NCBI GenBank assembly: GCA_021813325.1
Contig: JAKALA010000020.1
Location: forward strand, 1 to 57,133
Length of the DNA: 57,133 nt
Direction: 5' to 3'
From: a bacterium
Lineage (GTDB): Bacteria; Verrucomicrobiota; Verrucomicrobiia; Limisphaerales; UBA11358
Positions 1 through 9,171 of this stretch are shown piece by piece. A model generated the notes under the pieces. The model was given only the letters and a program-made list of their open reading frames with translations, did no database searches and was not told the DNA's origin. The number at the start of each line of letters is the position of its first letter. Position 1 is the first letter of the stretch. The position numbers and the translations under genes were made by a program.

Positions 1-4
1 CACT

Positions 5-40
5 GTTTTGACTTCACCCCCCGGAGAGGTCAGCTACAAT
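5..40 (+). CRISPR. Terminal CRISPR repeat of a type II-C array (array continues left of the window)
   Basis: This 36-nt unit starts GTTTTGAC and ends GCTACAAT, the length and end pattern of type II-C repeats such as that of Neisseria meningitidis. It is recognised mainly because a near-complete reverse complement lies at 72-106, as expected for a repeat and a tracrRNA anti-repeat; 15 bases (10-24 against 87-101) pair perfectly. Only one repeat is inside the window. Bases 1-4 would be the end of a spacer. Without a second repeat copy the call rests on the anti-repeat, the length and the neighbouring cas operon. Confidence 0.8.
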
Positions 41-44
41 AGGT

Positions 45-72
45 TTGACGGAAGCGACTGATATGGTATGAA
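45..72 (+). promoter_or_regulatory. Candidate tracrRNA promoter
   Basis: A -35-like TTGACG (45-50) is followed after 16 bases by a -10-like TATGAA (67-72), which would start RNA near base 79, inside the anti-repeat. A second possibility is the TACAAT at 35-40, the last six bases of the CRISPR repeat, which would start RNA near base 47 and include the full anti-repeat. The sequence alone does not decide between the two. Confidence 0.4.
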
Positions 73-190
73 TTGAACAGACTTTTCCGGGGGGTGAAGT
101 CTTAACTGATTAAGCGGCGTTGAAACCACTGCCTGGCACGTTTCAACGCCGCTTGTTTATTCCCAAAAGTCCACCTGGTTGGGAATTTTT
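72..190 (+). ncRNA. tracrRNA for the type II-C Cas9 system
   Basis: Bases 72-106 match the reverse complement of the adjacent CRISPR repeat along its whole length, with one missing base and a few mismatches. The block CCGGGGGGTGAAGTC is perfect, and an AA/TT mismatch near the repeat start would give an internal bulge as in known crRNA:tracrRNA duplexes. A perfect 15-bp hairpin follows (arms 112-126 and 140-154, 13-nt loop), then an 8-bp hairpin (159-166 with 179-186) ending in a T run. Anti-repeat, tail hairpins and terminator is the usual tracrRNA layout; it pairs with pre-crRNA and is bound by Cas9. It lies between the array and cas2, points toward the cas operon, and its last ~30 bases are antisense to the end of cas2. 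The 5' end is uncertain (47 to 79). Confidence 0.82.
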
Positions 191-513
191 GGATCTTTTG
201 ACCGGTTATCGTCCTTGTAGTTTTCGCCAATCACGGTGTAAGCACGCTTCCACTGCTCATCCGTCAAAAACATCAGTCGCACGTTGCCAGCCGTGGGAAT
301 GATGGCCTTGATGCGGGCAATGTGCGTGTCCATCTGCTCGTAGCTCACACAGGGCCGGGCATAGACTGAAAACTGAATCATCAAATAGCCGTTATCCAGC
401 AGATCATTGCGAAACTTGGTGGCCGCTTTGCGCTCCTTGTCTGTCATCACCGGCAGATCAAACATGGTGAGAATCCAGCCCATGCGGAACGAACTTTGCT
501 TCTCGATTTTCAT
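157..513 (-). CDS. cas2: CRISPR-associated endonuclease Cas2
   Basis: The product is 118 residues, slightly longer than the family norm of about 90-110. It has the ferredoxin-like Cas2 start, here WILTMFDLPV with the conserved Asp at residue 19, and the C-terminal tail ending NQVDFWE found in type II Cas2 proteins. Cas2 forms the dimer at the centre of the Cas1-Cas2 integrase that inserts new spacers. It is the last gene of the cas9-cas1-cas2 operon, 79 bases after cas1. That gap holds a long inverted repeat, and no clear ribosome binding site precedes the ATG. The 3' end overlaps the tracrRNA terminator on the other strand. Confidence 0.95.
   Translation of the reverse strand: MKIEKQSSFRMGWILTMFDLPVMTDKERKAATKFRNDLLDNGYLMIQFSVYARPCVSYEQMDTHIARIKAIIPTAGNVRLMFLTDEQWKRAYTVIGENYKDDNRSKDPKIPNQVDFWE
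159..190 (+). terminator. Intrinsic terminator of the tracrRNA, inside the cas2 3' end
   Basis: The stem ATTCCCAA (159-166) pairs with TTGGGAAT (179-186) over a 12-nt loop and runs into TTTT at 187-190. The opposite strand encodes the last residues of Cas2, so the terminator and the Cas2 C-terminus share the same DNA. Confidence 0.7.
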
Positions 514-518
514 TGGTT

Positions 519-593
519 GGAGACGAAGTGACGAGTCTCATAATTTCAAATTTTACATTTAAATTTTGTCCAGAGACTCCTCACGTCGTCTCC
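519..593. repeat. 21-bp-arm inverted repeat between cas1 and cas2
   Basis: The left arm at 519-539 (GGAGACGAAGTGACGAGTCTC reading, 21 bases) and the right arm at 573-593 are reverse complements with two mismatches, around an AT-rich 33-base centre. The right arm ends at the cas1 stop codon and the left arm ends about 5 bases before the cas2 start, so the hairpin fills the whole space between the genes. It could be a mobile palindromic repeat or an mRNA stem-loop that lowers cas2 translation. Confidence 0.8.
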
Positions 594-1477
594 TACGATA
601 ATTGCGGCACCCAGAATAACTCGGATGATTTTTCCGCATAACTTCGCGCCAGCGAAGCGGCGGAAGCATCAATGGCGTCCATCAACTTCAGCGAGTAACG
701 GTCATGCGTCACGCGCTGTTCCCGCAGTTCCGTGCCCACTTTTTTGCACCACGCTTTCATGCTGATGTCTTCCCCCACCATGAATTCTGCCATCATCAAA
801 TCCACCAACGGGCGATACGGCTCCATCATGTCATAAACCAGCGGATCGGAATGAAAACGGGGCACGTGTTTGATGCCCAGCAGCGGCGATAATCCATGAA
901 CGAGCAACCCGCGATGACACAGCGCCGCCAGCACGGCGTAGCCATAATTCAACATCTTGTTCGGGGCGTTATCCAGCTTGCGATCTCGCGATGACGACAC
1001 CCAGCCAATCGAGGGAAAATACAACTGCCAATAGCGCCGGGCGCAATTGCCCTCGTCAAACGTGTCTTGCTTGATGGCCAGTTCCAAATGCGGCGATTTT
1101 AATTGGCGTTTCTTCAGCACCTTCAATTGATTCACCGTCTTGCCCCGGATCAGGTGCTGCCACAGTCGGTTATTCAATCGTGCCGGGCGCTCCGCCTGGT
1201 GCAAATACGCGCGCAGGTCCGTCACCCGAGGCAACGGCGCGGTAATGCCGCAAGGCTGATAACTCTCGTTGCAATGCAGAATGATGCCGTCCGAGTCCAA
1301 AATGGCAGAAATAAAATGGGACGTAAGCGTGACGCCCCGGGCCGCGATGATTACCGCCCGCACATCCTCATGTGGAATCCGGTTTTCCGTCTTGTCTTCC
1401 CCACGGCAAACCAAAAAACCGCGATCTTTGGAAAGCACACAACCATGCTTCAAAACATGGAGAAGATGATGGCTCAT
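593..1477 (-). CDS. cas1: CRISPR-associated endonuclease Cas1 (type II-C)
   Basis: At 294 residues it has the usual length of type II Cas1. The N-terminal beta domain is followed by the alpha-helical catalytic domain. The expected metal-binding positions are visible: Glu142 in DEGNCARRYW, His204 in GIKHVPRF, and Asp216/Glu219 in the YDMMEPYRP block. Cas1 is the spacer integrase and acts as a Cas1-Cas2 complex. It starts 19 bases after the cas9 stop, so it is co-transcribed with cas9. No cas4 or csn2 is present, which with the gene order points to subtype II-C. Confidence 0.96.
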   Translation of the reverse strand: MSHHLLHVLKHGCVLSKDRGFLVCRGEDKTENRIPHEDVRAVIIAARGVTLTSHFISAILDSDGIILHCNESYQPCGITAPLPRVTDLRAYLHQAERPARLNNRLWQHLIRGKTVNQLKVLKKRQLKSPHLELAIKQDTFDEGNCARRYWQLYFPSIGWVSSSRDRKLDNAPNKMLNYGYAVLAALCHRGLLVHGLSPLLGIKHVPRFHSDPLVYDMMEPYRPLVDLMMAEFMVGEDISMKAWCKKVGTELREQRVTHDRYSLKLMDAIDASAASLARSYAEKSSELFWVPQLS

Positions 1478-1496
1478 AACATTGGTTTAAGGTCAT

Positions 1497-4400
1497 TTAA
1501 ATTGCCCGGCGAAATCCGACTTTTACCAGATGCTCAAGATTCGTCGCCACCTTTGTGCCGTTTGGCAAACTCATTTCAACGTCGAGTGATTTTGTAATTA
1601 TCGTGTTCAGAATAAACTTGCCCGGAGCCAAAGGTTTGTCTGAAGAAACGCGCCGTTTTTGCTTCGCTTCGTTTTTTACAACGAGCTTGTAACAAGCTAG
1701 AGGCAGTTCCTTCTCGGTAATAACGGTGCAATCAGATCGGAAAAATCCGTAAAATTTTGACTTTCTGCCGAGGCGTTCGATTGCAGCTCGTTCATTGTGA
1801 ACCGACCCATGAGCATATACTGGTTTGACAGACAGATTTCCATCCTTATCCCAAAACACAATCTGTCCCTTGTGCGGTTCCCCACGACGATAGCCTTTGC
1901 CATCAGAGGACATCGGCAAGTATTCGTCTGGACTGCCGCGATCTAGCAGTAGTCGTTTTATTTGCGGACCGTTCGTTCCGTCCTTCCGCTTGATAAAAAA
2001 GCCTCCGTCGCACATTGCCTTCCACTGCTGTTCGTTGGGTTTATCGGCAAATATGTTCTGAAACATTTCACGAACCGTGACGTCGCGGATGTTTTCGATG
2101 CGCTTGTGGACGGTCTTGAAAGAGATGTCATAGACCTTCCTCATGTTCTCCATTTTATACGGAAGTTCCCTGACATCTTCCAAGCGTCTGACCATTTTTG
2201 ACTTGCCACCAGCCTCATTCCTTATGCCGTAAATTTTTTCCTCCAGCGCGGGCTTTTTGAAGGCTATTGGCTCTGGAACTACATCTGCGATTTCACTTTC
2301 AAAAAACGCCTTTGCGTTTTTATGGATTGGGTCGGGAAAGCGGAAAAAATTTTCTTTCTTCTCATCGCGTAGCCAATGGGGCAAAAAGCTGATAACCATT
2401 GCATCCAACGCATGATGGCGGTTATCGCTACGATTCTTCTCAGCTTTTGATTCCCATTCAACGAGGTTGGTTGTTCCGGGCGGTGGAGGATTTAAAATGC
2501 TGTTGAGTCGATATTTTCGGCGCACACGGCCTGTGAGACCGCCAGAAATGACAACTACTCGTTTCACTGGAGCTTTCTCGGCGTAATCAATTCCATTCCG
2601 CCAGCCAAATTGAAGTGAAACGATTTTTTGAGCAAGCTTTGCAACCCATGCAGTTTCGGCTAGCGCTGTGTAGCGCCCCGCAAGTTCCGGCGCATCCTGC
2701 CGAGTTAGCAGTTGAACTTTCTTCTTTCCCAGTGTCGTTATCCGTTTTTCCACCCGTTCTACATATGCGGGCCAAAGCTCTGGCAAATCTTGATGAAACC
2801 ACTCAAAAGGTGTGCGGCATTTTTTCATCTGCTCATTCACATGTCGAGTGGTCACCACTTTGTTTAGAAAAGAGTCTGGCCCATTGTAGCCACCTTGTCT
2901 TGGAACAATGTGATCAATCACAAGGTCATCAATGTTGGTTACTCCAATCTGTTGGTTTGTATAAGGGCATTCCGTGTCGGCGAGTTTGGAGCGTGTCGCC
3001 TTCGTATCCAATGAACCGTTTGGAAAGTAAATGCATTCAAATCCTTGTGCCTTTAGCAGTTGAAATTTAAGAATTGCGTCGCGCCCCGTTGCTCCGAGTT
3101 GACTCACCATTTCCCGCGACTCTTTTCGAGCTTTTTCGTTGTCGCGAACCCACTGGCCATAATCGCGTTGAGCAATCTGGCTTAAAAAGCTTTCAGGGAG
3201 ATTGTCTCGAACAAATTCGATAACGACAGTGGCTGGTATTCCAAAAGCTTGGTTTGTTTTGCTGCCATTTTGAAGTTGCTTGAGGCGGTTAGCAAAAATG
3301 CCGAGTCGGTGGCGCACGATCGGGTCATTGATATTGCCAAGGAGTTCTCTGATGGCGGCATCTTTATTTACTTCGCCATTCTCGACCGCGTGTCGTGCTT
3401 CAAGGACATCAAGCCGCTGCTCCGGAATGTAAATCGCCTCCCAAGTGTTGTTTGTGCGGATAAGGTCTTCCAAGAATTTGAGATGCTTAACGAGAATCCA
3501 CGGTCGCGGCTGTTTGATGAATTTTTTTGCGCCGTTGACTTGGCGGGTGGGTTCGTTATCGAGAACATCCATCCTAAGTTCGTCAAGCAATGCTTTGTCG
3601 CGAGCCATTAGGCGAGCATGAAATTCGCTCGGTTTTTGTCCTTCCAAAATAAGGGCGCGAATTAGCTTTAACGCTGGTCTGCTAAAGCGGCTTCTTCCCT
3701 CGAATTTTGGCGATTTGATAACTGCCTGTCCAGGCAGCGGGCGCAAACCAAGTTCTTTGATTCCCTTTTTGCTACCCCATGCTTTTTCAGTTAGTGCGAA
3801 TCGTTCAACAAATTTTTTTGACCAATCCTTTACATCTGGCGGAATTGCCAAAGCTTCCTCCTTCACGAGATTAAAAATTTTCCGTATCTCGTCTGCACTA
3901 AGTTTTCGCTGTCCGTTTCCGTCTTCAACAAGCGTGTTCTTCAGCTTCATCAGAAACGTGACTTCAGATGGGAGAATGGAATCGGAAAAAGGCCGCTTGC
4001 TCTTTGCATCGTAACGAACGGTGACGTTGCATACTTGCAAACCATCCAACAGGGCGCAGTCATTGATTATGCGATTGTCAAAACGGGGAATCTTTTGCGC
4101 GGTAGCGCCCATCCAATCATCCACGCTACCCGAATGAATGTCGTGGTCTTTGCGAAAATCCAGATATTTGCCGAAATCTTCTTTCGCATCCTTCGGTGGT
4201 TCTCCCGCCGGGCCGTGAACGAGGAACTCCCCGAAATCTTTTGCGGCTACGAAAAAATGTTTCCCGCGTTTGGTCTTTTCATTCCACTGGGTCCACCCCT
4301 TTGCCTTGATGGTTTCAAATGCCGCTTTTATTTGTGGCATCTGTTCAGCGGCTTGGCGGGCGAGTGCGGCGATTTCCTTTTCCACGTCGTCACGTTCAAA

Positions 4401-5147
4401 CCGCACGCGCCGGGTGCTCTGTGCCTGACAATCAATACGCTCTTGGATAACGTCGGGTTTCCACAAGCCCATTTTCATTGCATCGTAATAGCATGGAAAA
4501 TGAAAGCGGTCGTCTTTGATTTCCCCTTTGAACTTCGGCCACGCTTCCACGGCAGCTTTGTAGGCTGGGTCTTTCTTTGCCAATTCCTTGTCCATTTCCT
4601 CGTCTGACTTGCCAGTGCGCTTTTGTTCGCGAGCCGCCCACGGGACTTTGCCATAACCCCGCTTCTGAATAGCCGAATGCAGTGCCTTGTAGATTTGCCA
4701 GGGTTCAGGCTTCTCGCCCCGCAGCAGTTTGATGCGCAGCAGACAGGACGTGTAGCAGGTGGGATCGCCCGGTTTGGCAAATTCGCGTTCCAGCAGTTCA
4801 CGATTGCGCCGTTGGTCCTCGGTTTCCGGCGCGGGCTGCCATTTGCCCTTTTTGCTTTTCCATTCAGATTGCGGAATCTGGTTTCTCTTTTCGTCCACCT
4901 TCACGAGTCGCCGGCCCGGCAATGGTTCAATGCCGGCCTGTCGCATGACGTCGTCCAGCCATCGTTCACGGGCTTTGTGGGCTTCCCGGGTGCGAGCCAT
5001 CAGGCGGCGACCGGCGGCGGTTTTGGTTTCCGCAAAATCTGCGGGGATGAGTAATGAGGCTTTGTGCAGGAATTGATTATTGAGCCGCACGGCTTCGCCA
5101 ATGGAGCCTTTGCCCAAATCAAATGCCCAGATGGTCCCGGTTTTCAT
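1497..5147 (-). CDS. cas9: Cas9 RNA-guided DNA endonuclease (type II-C)
   Basis: The 1216-residue protein has all nuclease motifs: RuvC-I with Asp10 (WAFDLGKGSIG), an Arg-rich bridge helix around residues 47-70, RuvC-II with Glu644 (VVIEFVRDN), an HNH domain around 720-790 with His746 (DDLVIDHIVP) and Asn762, and RuvC-III with His912 and Asp915 (NRHHALDAMVI). The PAM-interacting part should fill about residues 985-1216. It is longer than the small II-C enzymes of about 980-1080 residues. It cuts DNA matching the crRNA, guided by the crRNA:tracrRNA pair. The operon order cas9-cas1-cas2 without csn2 supports II-C. The middle of the gene reads visibly richer in A/T than the flanking genes, which hints at acquisition from elsewhere. 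All catalytic residues are intact, so it should be active. Confidence 0.97.
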   Translation of the reverse strand: MKTGTIWAFDLGKGSIGEAVRLNNQFLHKASLLIPADFAETKTAAGRRLMARTREAHKARERWLDDVMRQAGIEPLPGRRLVKVDEKRNQIPQSEWKSKKGKWQPAPETEDQRRNRELLEREFAKPGDPTCYTSCLLRIKLLRGEKPEPWQIYKALHSAIQKRGYGKVPWAAREQKRTGKSDEEMDKELAKKDPAYKAAVEAWPKFKGEIKDDRFHFPCYYDAMKMGLWKPDVIQERIDCQAQSTRRVRFERDDVEKEIAALARQAAEQMPQIKAAFETIKAKGWTQWNEKTKRGKHFFVAAKDFGEFLVHGPAGEPPKDAKEDFGKYLDFRKDHDIHSGSVDDWMGATAQKIPRFDNRIINDCALLDGLQVCNVTVRYDAKSKRPFSDSILPSEVTFLMKLKNTLVEDGNGQRKLSADEIRKIFNLVKEEALAIPPDVKDWSKKFVERFALTEKAWGSKKGIKELGLRPLPGQAVIKSPKFEGRSRFSRPALKLIRALILEGQKPSEFHARLMARDKALLDELRMDVLDNEPTRQVNGAKKFIKQPRPWILVKHLKFLEDLIRTNNTWEAIYIPEQRLDVLEARHAVENGEVNKDAAIRELLGNINDPIVRHRLGIFANRLKQLQNGSKTNQAFGIPATVVIEFVRDNLPESFLSQIAQRDYGQWVRDNEKARKESREMVSQLGATGRDAILKFQLLKAQGFECIYFPNGSLDTKATRSKLADTECPYTNQQIGVTNIDDLVIDHIVPRQGGYNGPDSFLNKVVTTRHVNEQMKKCRTPFEWFHQDLPELWPAYVERVEKRITTLGKKKVQLLTRQDAPELAGRYTALAETAWVAKLAQKIVSLQFGWRNGIDYAEKAPVKRVVVISGGLTGRVRRKYRLNSILNPPPPGTTNLVEWESKAEKNRSDNRHHALDAMVISFLPHWLRDEKKENFFRFPDPIHKNAKAFFESEIADVVPEPIAFKKPALEEKIYGIRNEAGGKSKMVRRLEDVRELPYKMENMRKVYDISFKTVHKRIENIRDVTVREMFQNIFADKPNEQQWKAMCDGGFFIKRKDGTNGPQIKRLLLDRGSPDEYLPMSSDGKGYRRGEPHKGQIVFWDKDGNLSVKPVYAHGSVHNERAAIERLGRKSKFYGFFRSDCTVITEKELPLACYKLVVKNEAKQKRRVSSDKPLAPGKFILNTIITKSLDVEMSLPNGTKVATNLEHLVKVGFRRAI

Positions 5148-5544: not shown

Positions 5545-5600
5545 ACATGATGATCAAAACTCCTTTCGGCGCTGATGGAGTTTAATAAATGTTTAACCAA

Positions 5601-5768
5601 CCTTGGTTGGCGTTCCATGGAAATGGGTTGGCGGCCAATCAAATTTTGTCCGGCTTGAACGGAGTCAATTCAACGGTCGATAAACCTTGGCCGGTCTTCG
5701 GCGGACATTGGTTGGCGGCCAATGAAATTCTGTCCGGCGGCAACGGGATTAAAGGCATCACCAGGCCA
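5601..5768. repeat. Two 84-bp imperfect tandem units
   Basis: Units 5601-5684 and 5685-5768 align without gaps. Both start CCTTGG and share GGTTGGCGGCCAAT, GAAATT/CAAATT and TGTCCGGC blocks. The unit is 28 codons, so the repeat keeps the reading frame of a 66-codon open frame (5589-5789, +) and also of the opposite strand. I could not tell which strand, if either, was once translated. Confidence 0.65.
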
Positions 5769-6041
5769 TCTCCGACGAACGGCAATTGACCTCAATGGAG
5801 CGCCCATACGACTCCTTTGACCGCACCGTTGAAGTCGATTAATAAATCCAGGGTCCCGGCCCTGAAAAATATTTTGCCGTTCAGCCCGGCATTTCGCGCG
5901 CCGGGGGCATTTGAAACCGCGAATGACGCCAAACCCGCGAACGGGGATGGCAGGGAGGCGGGGCAAACAAAAGGAAACTTCCTATTTTCGCGGGGTTCGC
6001 GGGGCGTTCCAATGTGCGGAGTTTGGTGGGGTGGAAATAGG

Positions 6042-6304: not shown

Positions 6305-6946
6305 ATGGATAAACAAATCATGAACATTAACATCAGCAACTATCGGGTGAACCTTGGATTCGCGAGCTATTCGGATGCGGATCTGGGGGATTTCACGGAC
6401 AATATCATCGCCGGGCTGACGGGAAACGCCAGTTTTCCCACGCCCACCGTGCCGCTGGCGGATCTGACCGCCCAACGCGCGGCCTTTGGCACGGCGGTGG
6501 TCAATGCCATGCAGGGCGGCAAGCAGTTGACCGCCGCGAAAAACGCGGCGCGCAAGACGCTGATCTCGACCTTGCGCAAGGAGGCGGCGTATGTGCAGAG
6601 TCTCGCCGGCGAGAATGTGGCCATGCTGCTCGCTTCCGGTTTCCAGGCCAACAGCACCAACCGCACCCGCGCGCCGCTGGCCATCCCGGCCATTTTGGCC
6701 ATTCTGAACGAAATGACCACCACACTGACGGTGCGGCTACAGCCGGTGGATAATGCGCGGGCATATCAGGTGCGTTACAATGTGAACGGCGGACCGTGGT
6801 TGACAACGGTGGATTCCACCCAGACGCGCCGCATTGTTCTGGACAGCCTCACGCCGGGCGCCACTTACACGGTGCAATCGCGGGCGGTGGGCGGTTCCAC
6901 CGGTTACAGCGACTGGAGCGACCCGGTCGCGCACATGGCCATGTAA
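6305..6946 (+). CDS. FN3-domain protein of unknown function
   Basis: The 213-residue product has an N-terminal region of about 120 residues that is mostly helical and rich in Ala. A C-terminal fibronectin type III domain follows (about residues 138-213), with the typical pattern ARAYQVRYNVNGGPW and the YTVQSRAVGGSTGYSDWS end. There is no signal peptide and no membrane segment. The start could also be the second Met, six codons in (6320). The gene is monocistronic: a strong hairpin terminator follows at once. Similar two-part proteins occur in Verrucomicrobia but I know no assigned role. It may be a structural or binding protein. Confidence 0.8.
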   Translation: MDKQIMNINISNYRVNLGFASYSDADLGDFTDNIIAGLTGNASFPTPTVPLADLTAQRAAFGTAVVNAMQGGKQLTAAKNAARKTLISTLRKEAAYVQSLAGENVAMLLASGFQANSTNRTRAPLAIPAILAILNEMTTTLTVRLQPVDNARAYQVRYNVNGGPWLTTVDSTQTRRIVLDSLTPGATYTVQSRAVGGSTGYSDWSDPVAHMAM

Positions 6947-6968
6947 AACCAGGAGCCAGCAGGTGGAA

Positions 6969-7005
6969 ACAGCCGGAACGCGGCCCCGCGTTCCGGCTGT
7001 GTTTT
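6969..7005 (+). terminator. Intrinsic terminator after the FN3 gene
   Basis: A perfect 15-bp stem (6969-6983 with 6986-7000) formed by ACAGCCGGAACGCGG and its complement is followed by GTTTTG. It lies 22 bases after the stop codon. Confidence 0.75.
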
Positions 7006-7075
7006 GAAGCAAAAATCGCGGCATGATTTTTCACAAACACTTGCCGTCAATTGCCCGCTGACATAGCTTTCCGCC

Positions 7076-7708
7076 GTGAAAAAAGCCGGGCGCCCCATCA
7101 TCCCGCGAAAGACCATTTACCGGCTTTCGATTTATTTGCGTTGCCTGGCGCGGCTGCGCGAAAACGCCATCAACACCGTGTCCAGCGAGGCATTGGCCCA
7201 GGCGGCGGGCGTAAAGCCCACCCAACTGCGCAAGGATCTGGCCTATTTTGGCGCCTTCGGCACGCGCGGTCTGGGCTATGAGGTGAACGCGCTTTCCAAG
7301 CGCATTTCCGATGAATTGGGCACCTCCAGCCTGCAACCGGTCATCCTGGTGGGCGTGGGCAACCTGGGGCTGGCGTTGCTCTCCTACCGCGGTTTTGAAA
7401 AAGAGGGTTTTGAAATTGTGGCCGCCTTTGACGCGGCCCCCAAGCGGAAACGCGACAAACAGATTCACCTGCCCATTTGGGGCATGGAAAAATTGAAAAA
7501 TTTTGTTCACGAAAAGAACGTCAAAATGGCGATTCTTTCGGTGCCCGCCGCCGCCGCCCAAACCGTGGCCAATGAGTTGATGGCCGCCGGCATCATGGGC
7601 ATTTTGAATTTTTCCCCCATCGTGCTGGCGGTGCCGGAGGATGTCATGGTCAACAACGTCAATCTGGCGATTGAACTGGAAAACCTCAGCTATTTCATCC
7701 AAGGCTGA
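7076..7708 (+). CDS. rex: Redox-sensing transcriptional repressor Rex
   Basis: The 210-residue protein matches the Rex family in length. It has an N-terminal winged helix (about 12-61, with the block QLRKDLAYFGAFGTRG) and a Rossmann fold whose dinucleotide-binding motif GVGNLG lies at residues 93-98. Rex senses the NADH/NAD+ ratio and represses respiratory and fermentative genes when NADH is low. The start is a GTG; upstream in-frame starts are absent. It sits 310 bases from the end of the cbb3 oxidase cluster and points toward it. That fits a role in respiration control, but I could not find a full Rex operator near either one. Confidence 0.95.
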   Translation: MKKAGRPIIPRKTIYRLSIYLRCLARLRENAINTVSSEALAQAAGVKPTQLRKDLAYFGAFGTRGLGYEVNALSKRISDELGTSSLQPVILVGVGNLGLALLSYRGFEKEGFEIVAAFDAAPKRKRDKQIHLPIWGMEKLKNFVHEKNVKMAILSVPAAAAQTVANELMAAGIMGILNFSPIVLAVPEDVMVNNVNLAIELENLSYFIQG

Positions 7709-7818
7709 ACCGTTTTTTAAAGCAACGAGGCCGAAGGCACACGTTGATTTAGAGCGGTTTTTTAAAAAAATACAACCGCGTAACAATCGAAAAATTGTGG
7801 CAGAGCGGCAGCTTGCTC

Positions 7819-7934
7819 GGTAGCAAAGATGGCTGGCGAAGTGGCGGCGACGCCCTCGTCGCCGTGCGGATTGGATATTTCCAACTGCGACGCGGCGGCG
7901 CCGCCACTATTCCGACATGTTTGCTACAAAGCAA
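7819..7934. repeat. Palindromic dispersed repeat, long copy
   Basis: The left end GTAGCAAAGATG and the right end CATGTTTGCTAC are nearly perfect inverted repeats. The complementarity continues inward through the GTGGCGGC...GCCGCCAC blocks. The element therefore folds into a long imperfect hairpin, like REP or MITE-type palindromes. It lies between the convergent rex and TauE/SafE-like genes. The shorter relative is at 5481-5544. Confidence 0.8.
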
Positions 7935-8018
7935 TTCCGAAAGAGAGACAGGCGAGACGGCTGTCCTGCGACGGTATTGATTTGGATGCGGCAAACATTT
8001 CTCCCCTGCCCTGCCCGA

Positions 8019-8705
8019 TTAATTGGCGCAGCAATTGGCCGCTCCTGAAGTCAAATCCGGGCTGAGATAAGGAATGCCCAAGGCCATTCCGCGCAGAATC
8101 AACAATGCCGCCACCACGCAAATCCCGGCGGGAATCATGGCCCGCAGCCGCAAGCGCAGTTGCGGCGGAAATATTTTTCCCGACAGGCTGATGGCGAGCA
8201 TCATCGGCAGCGTGCCCAATCCAAAGACCGCCATGCAGGCCATTCCCCGGACCAATGAGCCGGCGGCAACGGCTCCCGCCATGGCCACATAAACCAGGCC
8301 GCACGGCAACAGGCCATTCAACAAGCCCAGCAGCGTCAGCGAACGGAAACCGCGCTGGCGCAATTGAGCGGACATGGCGGATTTCAGCGCCATCACAAGT
8401 TTTACCGCGGGAACCGAGAGCGCCACTTTTTTTGAAACCAGGAGGCCCCCCAAAATGGCGACGCCCAGGCCGATGGACAACGCGCGTTGCATCCCCGCAA
8501 AGGCGATGGCATGGCCGAGCCAGCCGGCCACCGCGCCCAGCAAACAGTAGGTGGTGATGCGTCCGCCTTGATACAGCAACCGCCCGGCGATGATCCGCCC
8601 GGCCCCGCCGGCGGGAATGGGCAAGGCCAGTTGCAGTGGCCCGCACATGGCCGCGCAGTGCAGACTGCCGATCAAGCCCAGGGCGAAAGCGATGGTGAAA
8701 TCCAT
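8019..8705 (-). CDS. TauE/SafE-like (UreH_2-type) membrane protein of the cbb3 cluster
   Basis: The product is a six- to seven-helix membrane protein of 228 residues starting MDFTIAFALGLIG. Near the N-terminus is the HCAAMCGP motif (residues 16-23), typical of the sulfite exporter TauE/SafE-like family members that sit beside cbb3 assembly genes. A second helix pair has the LLPCGLVY motif. In other bacteria this protein follows ccoGHIS and is thought to help with copper handling or oxidase maturation. I chose this ATG because it comes one base after the fixH stop (TAA-C-ATG), which suggests translational coupling. An ATG six codons upstream would overlap fixH by 17 bases. It is the last gene of the cluster. 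Confidence 0.85.
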   Translation of the reverse strand: MDFTIAFALGLIGSLHCAAMCGPLQLALPIPAGGAGRIIAGRLLYQGGRITTYCLLGAVAGWLGHAIAFAGMQRALSIGLGVAILGGLLVSKKVALSVPAVKLVMALKSAMSAQLRQRGFRSLTLLGLLNGLLPCGLVYVAMAGAVAAGSLVRGMACMAVFGLGTLPMMLAISLSGKIFPPQLRLRLRAMIPAGICVVAALLILRGMALGIPYLSPDLTSGAANCCAN

Positions 8706-8706
8706 G

Positions 8707-9171
8707 TTAATTGGAAACGACAAATTCCAATTCCAGAAAATAGTCCACGGAATCAGATTGCCAACTGGCCCGCACCTGCCAGGGGCCGGGTTTCAAATCG
8801 GAAACACTCAGCCGTTGCCGTCCGTCAGCCGCGGGCTTGAGGGGAACCTGCCGGTCCAAATCCGAGGATGACGGCCGATAAAACACCAGATTACCGGAGA
8901 AATTCCGCGCCAGTTGGGCGCTCGGAACGGCCAGCTCGATCTGGCCGGCGCCAGCCAGATAGGCAAGCGTGGCGCCGCAGCTTTGGGCGCGCGCGGTGGC
9001 ATCGATCTGCTGTTGAAACTTCAACTCGCTCTCGTAGTAATTCGGGGTGACCAGCGAGTCCTGATGCGTGACGGCGATATAGATGGCGGTGGTGATGCCG
9101 GCCAGCAGGAGGACGAAGGCCATGGTGATGCCCAAGGGCCAATAGTTGCGGGTGGGGGTGGTCGTGGTCAT
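8707..9171 (-). CDS. ccoH: FixH/CcoH-type cbb3 oxidase assembly protein
   Basis: The 154-residue protein has one N-terminal membrane segment (about 13-32) followed by the FixH signature: a VTHQDSLVTPNYYESELKF stretch and a periplasmic beta domain ending GPWQVRASWQSDSVDYFLE. FixH/CcoH is needed for assembly or stability of the cbb3 oxidase in the inner membrane. It starts 4 bases after the ccoG stop and is followed at once by the TauE/SafE-like gene, so the three are one transcriptional unit. Confidence 0.88.
   Translation of the reverse strand: MTTTTPTRNYWPLGITMAFVLLLAGITTAIYIAVTHQDSLVTPNYYESELKFQQQIDATARAQSCGATLAYLAGAGQIELAVPSAQLARNFSGNLVFYRPSSSDLDRQVPLKPAADGRQRLSVSDLKPGPWQVRASWQSDSVDYFLELEFVVSN

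Follow-up and report, generated by a model that had tools for sequence, protein, structure and literature searches.

The window analysed here, a stretch of 57,133 nucleotides whose first letter is base 1 of contig C111 in a 4.28-Mb genome assembled in 123 contigs, very likely contains, at positions ~79-163 of the plus strand, the tracrRNA gene belonging to the Cas9 system whose genes occupy 157-5147 on the minus strand. The anti-repeat, a conserved core and hairpin, and the occurrence together with Cas9 all agree with the identification of a tracrRNA gene beside the CRISPR repeat that was made in an initial annotation of this DNA, and related bacteria have a conserved tracrRNA at the corresponding position. 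As deduced from the sequence, the most likely ends of the RNA are near 79 and near 163, and it is most likely the helper RNA needed by a large, little-studied Cas9 family. The order array, tracrRNA, cas2, cas1, cas9 given in the initial annotation is borne out, and the features of the locus are the following.

5-40, plus strand: last, cas-proximal CRISPR repeat, from identity to 12 copies on contig C16.
41-60, plus strand: conserved leader element AGGTTTGACGGAAGCGACTG right behind the last repeat, from the information content of 14 loci.
45-72, plus strand: candidate tracrRNA promoter TTGACG-16-TATGAA, read from the sequence, with a conserved TTGAC part.
79-163, plus strand: predicted tracrRNA gene, from the match of a leave-out covariance model (77-164) and the fold z-score, with probable ends.
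80-106, plus strand: anti-repeat, from the duplex energy compared to shuffles and from cofolding.
101-109, plus strand: conserved core CTTAACTGA, invariant or nearly so in alignments of 11 and 14 sequences.
112-154, plus strand: tracrRNA hairpin with a 15-bp stem, the loop CACTGCCTGGCAC and inner TGC/GCA pairs, from covariation and T-run counts.
159-190, plus strand: second hairpin (arms 159-166 and 179-186, -9.1 kcal/mol) and T run (186-190), both of which fall within cas2, at its 3' end.
157-513, minus strand: cas2 (TIGR01573, 64.4 bits, cut-off 24.5; PADLOC Cas2_II).
593-1477, minus strand: type II cas1 (TIGR03639, 145.6 bits, cut-off 120).
1497-5147, minus strand: cas9, encoding 1216 aa (NF049971 'Cas9d', 817.4 bits, cut-off 375; TIGR01865, 166.8 bits, cut-off 100).

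The 36-nt repeat, which only 4 nt precede in the window, has 12 further identical copies, which follow one another every 66 nt where contig C16 of this genome ends; there the array contains 11 complete spacers of 30 nt each and the contig stops 8 nt into the following spacer. A genome-wide search listed the repeat on no contig other than C16 and that of the window. Because identical repeats end C16, we consider this to be one array split by the assembly, with the window holding the cas-side end; the join of C16 to the window is deduced from the common repeats. The description of the window copy as a terminal repeat is correct in that the other copies sit on C16 and, with the rest of the genome checked, this copy is the one that adjoins the cas genes, and the search for more repeats to the left, which had been set as a refutation test, yielded the 12 extra exact copies on C16.

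Type II-C arrays have a promoter inside every repeat and take up new spacers at the last repeat (PMC12080349, in excerpt). Among the array of the window and its relatives, the first repeats are worn or odd in 6 of the 10 with the far end in view, although two of the six are weak calls (16 mismatches in 36 positions for C16 and 15 mismatches for L044). The last listed repeat matches the reference, which was chosen by hand, in 13 of 13 arrays (L072, L079 and L096 being outside the count), and this is true by construction for L076 and L077, each of which contains a single full repeat copy that is its own reference. Since worn first repeats and sound last ones fit type II-C, the leader most likely lies at the array end that adjoins the tracrRNA. 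As a separate observation, L076 and L077 have one full repeat per array, yet the tracrRNA beside it is intact.

Within the region between the repeat and the anti-repeat, the initial annotation had passed over the conserved leader stretch at 41-60. In 14 loci, the information content of these 20 positions amounts to 19.0 bits, compared to at most 4.8 bits in 1000 shuffles, a count made without L045 and L046, in which the leader is different; the consensus is AGG-Y-TTGAC-N-GAA, and its TTGAC part resembles a -35 box. The corresponding candidate -10 box, TATGAA, is weak, is not conserved and is absent from the promoter scan listing. We tentatively propose that a single stretch of ~20-30 bp could be both the CRISPR leader, at which Cas1-Cas2 insert spacers, and the tracrRNA promoter, aided by the -10 box of the last repeat. 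If this is the case, every spacer addition would occur at the tracrRNA promoter, so that the growth of immune memory would be coupled to the supply of guide RNA; the leader role would further imply that spacers are inserted at 40/41, depending on the leader motif AGGTTTGAC.

A variant to which we assign a fairly low probability dispenses with a dedicated tracrRNA promoter: transcription would be driven by TACAAT, the 3' six bases of the last repeat (35-40), and start near 47, with subsequent trimming by RNase III. TACAAT resembles a -10 box and is a better one than the TATGAA of the leader; the promoter scan lists the TACAAT site alone (TTCACC-16-TACAAT, one site, with 0.6 expected by chance), and a -10-like hexamer, with a best score of 4 or 5 of 6, is found at the 3' end of 16 of 16 repeats, that of the window included, a tally that comes with no chance control. 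However, copy b of the tracrRNA in L079 retains TTGACAGAA with no repeat in front of it, in favour of a promoter role for this element; L045 and L046, with their different leader, have TTGCAA-17-TATATT immediately before the anti-repeat, which also argues against transcription from the repeat.

The initial annotation described a nearly complete reverse complement of the repeat at 72-106. The inverted copy is indeed there, matching the repeat at 27 of 36 positions without gaps (71-106), but the pairing is uneven: in the cofold, 80-101 pair with repeat bases 6-27 (22 bp), a 2x2 U/U internal loop follows, and a second helix joins 104-106 to repeat bases 1-3. The 27-nt core arms, 5-31 and 80-106, match at 23 of 27 positions, whereas the best 27-nt arms in 60 random 160-nt windows taken from the same contig from position 6000 onward reach at most 19 of 27. 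The repeat/anti-repeat duplex has an energy of -46.7 kcal/mol, compared to -13.7 kcal/mol (sd 3.5) for 200 shuffled anti-repeats, and the duplex is stronger than all 200 shuffles in each of the 16 tracrRNA copies from 15 genomes (window included). Among the repeats tried as partners, the own repeat ranks best for 10 of the 16 copies, second for four, third for one and fourth for one; that of the window ranks second, 0.3 kcal/mol behind the repeat of L072.

It is highly improbable that the inverted copy is nothing but a worn, inverted CRISPR repeat at the end of the array, followed by a hairpin that is an unrelated terminator, with no tracrRNA function. The similarity of the copy to the whole repeat (the 27 of 36 positions) and the gap of ~31 nt to the last repeat, near the 30-nt spacer length, are what one would expect of such a remnant, but not the fit of the anti-repeats to their repeats, which surpasses that of the shuffles by a wide margin in 16 of 16 copies, nor the conservation of the core and the loop and the covariation of the stem. 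In 15 copies, moreover, the core lies 57 to 88 nt from the repeat, and in copy b of L079 it lies 348 nt away, so the spacer-like spacing is not general. We also considered an inverted repeat unit that continues the period of the array (a 31-nt gap against 30-nt spacers), and rejected it because the spacing varies among the copies. The gene may nevertheless have originated from an inverted repeat unit.

Downstream of the anti-repeat, the reading as a tracrRNA gene is supported by a conserved RNA structure. The 79-165 segment folds with -39 kcal/mol (z-score -5.18), the core CTTAACTGA is nearly invariant in 11 relatives aligned without the window, and the arms of the first hairpin, 112-126 and 140-154, are complementary at 15 of 15 positions. 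An RNAalifold analysis of the 11 relatives, again without the window, recovered the stem, and 14 of its 16 pairs vary on both sides. In the 14-sequence alignment that includes the window (L045 and L046, with unalignable inner loops, are outside it), 85.7% of the cells are paired and 13 of the 16 pairs change on both sides, namely all 13 pairs of the outer stem; the three inner TGC/GCA pairs carry little information on pairing because they are almost invariant. The covariation score was reached by none of 500 shuffles, and sliding one arm reduced pairing to 24-44%. The loop of the hairpin itself is conserved as well.

In known tracrRNAs, the anti-repeat and the core come before the hairpin. That the RNA is read from the opposite strand, starting on the cas2 side, is extremely unlikely given that, although hairpins and complementarity are by themselves strand-neutral, a run of at least four T within 12 nt of the stem is found in 14 of 17 copies on the plus strand and in 0 of 17 on the minus strand, 13 G-U pairs on the plus strand stand against five A-C pairs that would be G-U on the minus strand, and the order of parts just described would be found solely in an RNA read from the plus strand. 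The initial annotation had the tracrRNA pointing at the operon, which is right with respect to the plus strand; more precisely, the gene is convergent, tail to tail, with cas2. The same arrangement is found in the relatives, with a convergent open frame downstream of the tracrRNA in 16 of 16 loci and a cas2-like [ED]FW end in 15 of the 16.

The hairpin and the T-rich stretch behind it are likely a terminator. The window is among the three exceptions to the T-run pattern, with a longest run of three T and 7 T among the 12 bases behind the stem, and a terminator scan of window positions 1-600 reported no site. The initial annotation had assigned two hairpins and a T run to the tracrRNA, of which the first hairpin stands; the second hairpin and the T run belong to the 3' end of cas2, being derived from its end codons (...IPNQVDFWE-stop), and are not conserved together in relatives. 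Accordingly, we do not accept a tracrRNA with two hairpins as a conserved trait, given that the second hairpin consists of cas2 codons and that its pairing or the T run is lost in relatives. In this genome, it may act as a back-up terminator. A search of the window against Rfam found no family at the gathering score.

As a leave-out test, we used a covariance model (R1) built from 11 relatives, leaving out the window along with L072, L073 and L075, which have a nearly identical stem, and keeping L074, with a similar stem, as well as L069 and L070 from the genus of the window. In the 4.28-Mb genome to which the window belongs, the sole strong match of R1, with 150 of 469 first-look candidates scored, was to positions 77-164 (E 2.7e-18), the next ones having E-values of 2.7 and 8.6. 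The model also recovers the left-out L072, L073 and L075, and both copies of L079, of which copy a is a training sequence. In L079, the two tracrRNA copies are in tandem (139-226 and 428-515) with one array, and the second has TTGACAGAA and no repeat before it.

Across the order, R1 detects the RNA in 11 of 313 genomes at E 0.001, six of which are sources of the model and five are not. All 11 fall among the 17 of 320 genomes of the order that encode a relative of the Cas9 (the RNA search and the Cas9 search covered draws of 313 and 320 genomes, which differ in membership); in G422, the RNA and a piece of cas9 are on separate contigs. In six of the 17 Cas9-bearing genomes, there is no RNA match: in five of these (G419, G514, G520, G637 and G657), no more than 0.75 kb separates the cas9 match from a contig end, and in the sixth, G489, the only listed cas9 match is a fragment with a stop. 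An RNA may lie on a missing or different contig in these genomes. A weak R1 match (18.7 bits), not included in the count, was seen together with this cas9 fragment with an in-frame stop on contig C365 of G489 (L081:6419-6448), perhaps a decayed locus. In the phylum, 10 of 387 genomes have matches at E 0.01, of which six are those with a Cas9 over the Cas9d cut-off (five model sources and the genome of the window). The other four (G150, G204, G211 and G218) have weak matches of 23-28 bits (E 4e-4 to 7e-3) that we take to be due to chance.

In addition to the cas operon, the genome contains a gene for RNase III (245.8 bits, cut-off 166.25). In a tree of 41 Cas9 proteins, the 17 members of the family form one group, with support of 100/100, to the exclusion of 24 others from the phylum; the tree contains no II-D references, and a program warning points to the meeting of two long branches, one of the 17 and the other of L026, L036 and L042. 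Six of the 17 come from genomes with scores over the NF049971 cut-off, and the remaining eleven were found by protein search and carry no NF049971 score.

The fit to the NCBIfam family NF049971 'Cas9d' links the Cas9 of the window to type II-D, whereas several other features set it apart. According to excerpts of PMC9755519, Cas9d proteins comprise about 600-1050 aa and contain a zinc finger of the pattern C-x2-4-C-x27-31-C-x2-4-[CH]; the Cas9 described here is, at 1216 aa, outside this size range, and it contains neither the published zinc finger pattern nor RRXRR; single ribbon-like motifs are found at residue 131 and at residue 216. The adaptation module of type II-D includes cas4 (PMC12669027, in excerpt), whereas there is no cas4 in this locus; the sole Cas4-domain match of the genome is in a 726-aa frame on contig C32. 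The published guide RNA of Cas9d, moreover, has four paired regions, P1-P4, in the excerpted text of the group PMC9755519, PMC11706934 and PMC12669027, in which it differs from the RNA found here. The size, the missing cas4 and the missing zinc finger make filing under II-D doubtful despite NF049971.

Comparison with solved structures, using a 7-row family profile, identified Cas9 chains of about 1055-1154 aa as the best relatives; the 747-aa chain of the solved Cas9d (PMC11706934, in excerpt) is absent among the 47 profile matches, with the caveat that deposited lengths can differ. A phmmer search of the solved structures with the single Cas9 found nothing at 0.001, and a structure prediction for Cas9 from a two-row alignment was discarded, having a pLDDT of 30. 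The locus resembles type II-C, as described in excerpts of PMC12080349, in the -10-like 3' ends of the repeats, in the complement of cas9, cas1 and cas2 without cas4, and in the state of the arrays, 6 of 10 of which have worn first repeats while the last ones are sound, as would fit spacer addition at the last repeat. It differs from type II-C in that this Cas9 belongs to a group separate from the 24 Cas9 proteins of the phylum and bears the NCBIfam name Cas9d. The subtype may be II-C or II-D; the array layout looks like that of II-C.

Taken together with what has been described for type II-C, the locus suggests a mode of action that would include the following steps. The tracrRNA would be transcribed from the leader promoter, or from the -10 box of the last repeat itself, and would end at the hairpin beside the cas2 stop, while the crRNAs would be transcribed from promoters within each repeat, as in type II-C. 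The crRNA and tracrRNA are predicted to pair over about 22 bp and through a short second helix, and RNase III would trim the duplex. The parts of the RNA pair gripped by Cas9 would be the repeat duplex, the CUUAACUGA core and the hairpin; the enzyme would then cut matching DNA. New spacers would be inserted at the leader, which separates the last repeat from the tracrRNA. Searches for protospacers yielded nothing convincing: four records in phages at E 10 and 15 in plasmids, all of which involve one spacer (query 237-266), with 92-93% identity over 26-28 nt and a best E-value of 0.7. In viral contigs, there was no exact match for one of the 11 complete spacers, and the repeat pattern also had no match.

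The tracrRNAs of type II systems fall into seven clusters (PMC7606464, in excerpt). Compared in general layout, the RNA described here resembles type II tracrRNAs in the succession of an anti-repeat and a structured 3' part and in its position beside cas9 and the array, and is distinguished by the core CTTAACTGA and by having one 3' hairpin, the loop of which is CACTGCCTGGCAC. Among the matches listed in a search of PubMed Central titles and abstract beginnings, there was no description of this tracrRNA and no study of the family of large Cas9 proteins. The tracrRNA would complete the guide RNA of the large Cas9 family, and the covariance-supported model detects such RNAs from sequence. With the repeat, the tracrRNA and Cas9 identified, the activity and the PAM become testable. 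Should the common leader/promoter stretch prove real, the addition of spacers would be tied to tracrRNA supply.

Several other features were noticed in and around these loci. In one relative, an ORF of the 23S rRNA-intervening-sequence-protein family (PF05635) lies between cas1 and cas2 (L010:10583-11086). In the window, two imperfect 84-nt tandem copies (71%) at 5577-5744 overlap a small plus-strand frame (5589-5789) that is divergent from cas9 and has no Pfam match; a search of related loci for homologues gave nothing convincing. Further upstream of cas9, at 6305-9171, there are four frames, none of which matches a Pfam defence family: an ORF with an fn3 domain, a DNA-binding/CoA-binding regulator, which we take to be Rex-like, and genes of the DsbD_2 and FixH families.
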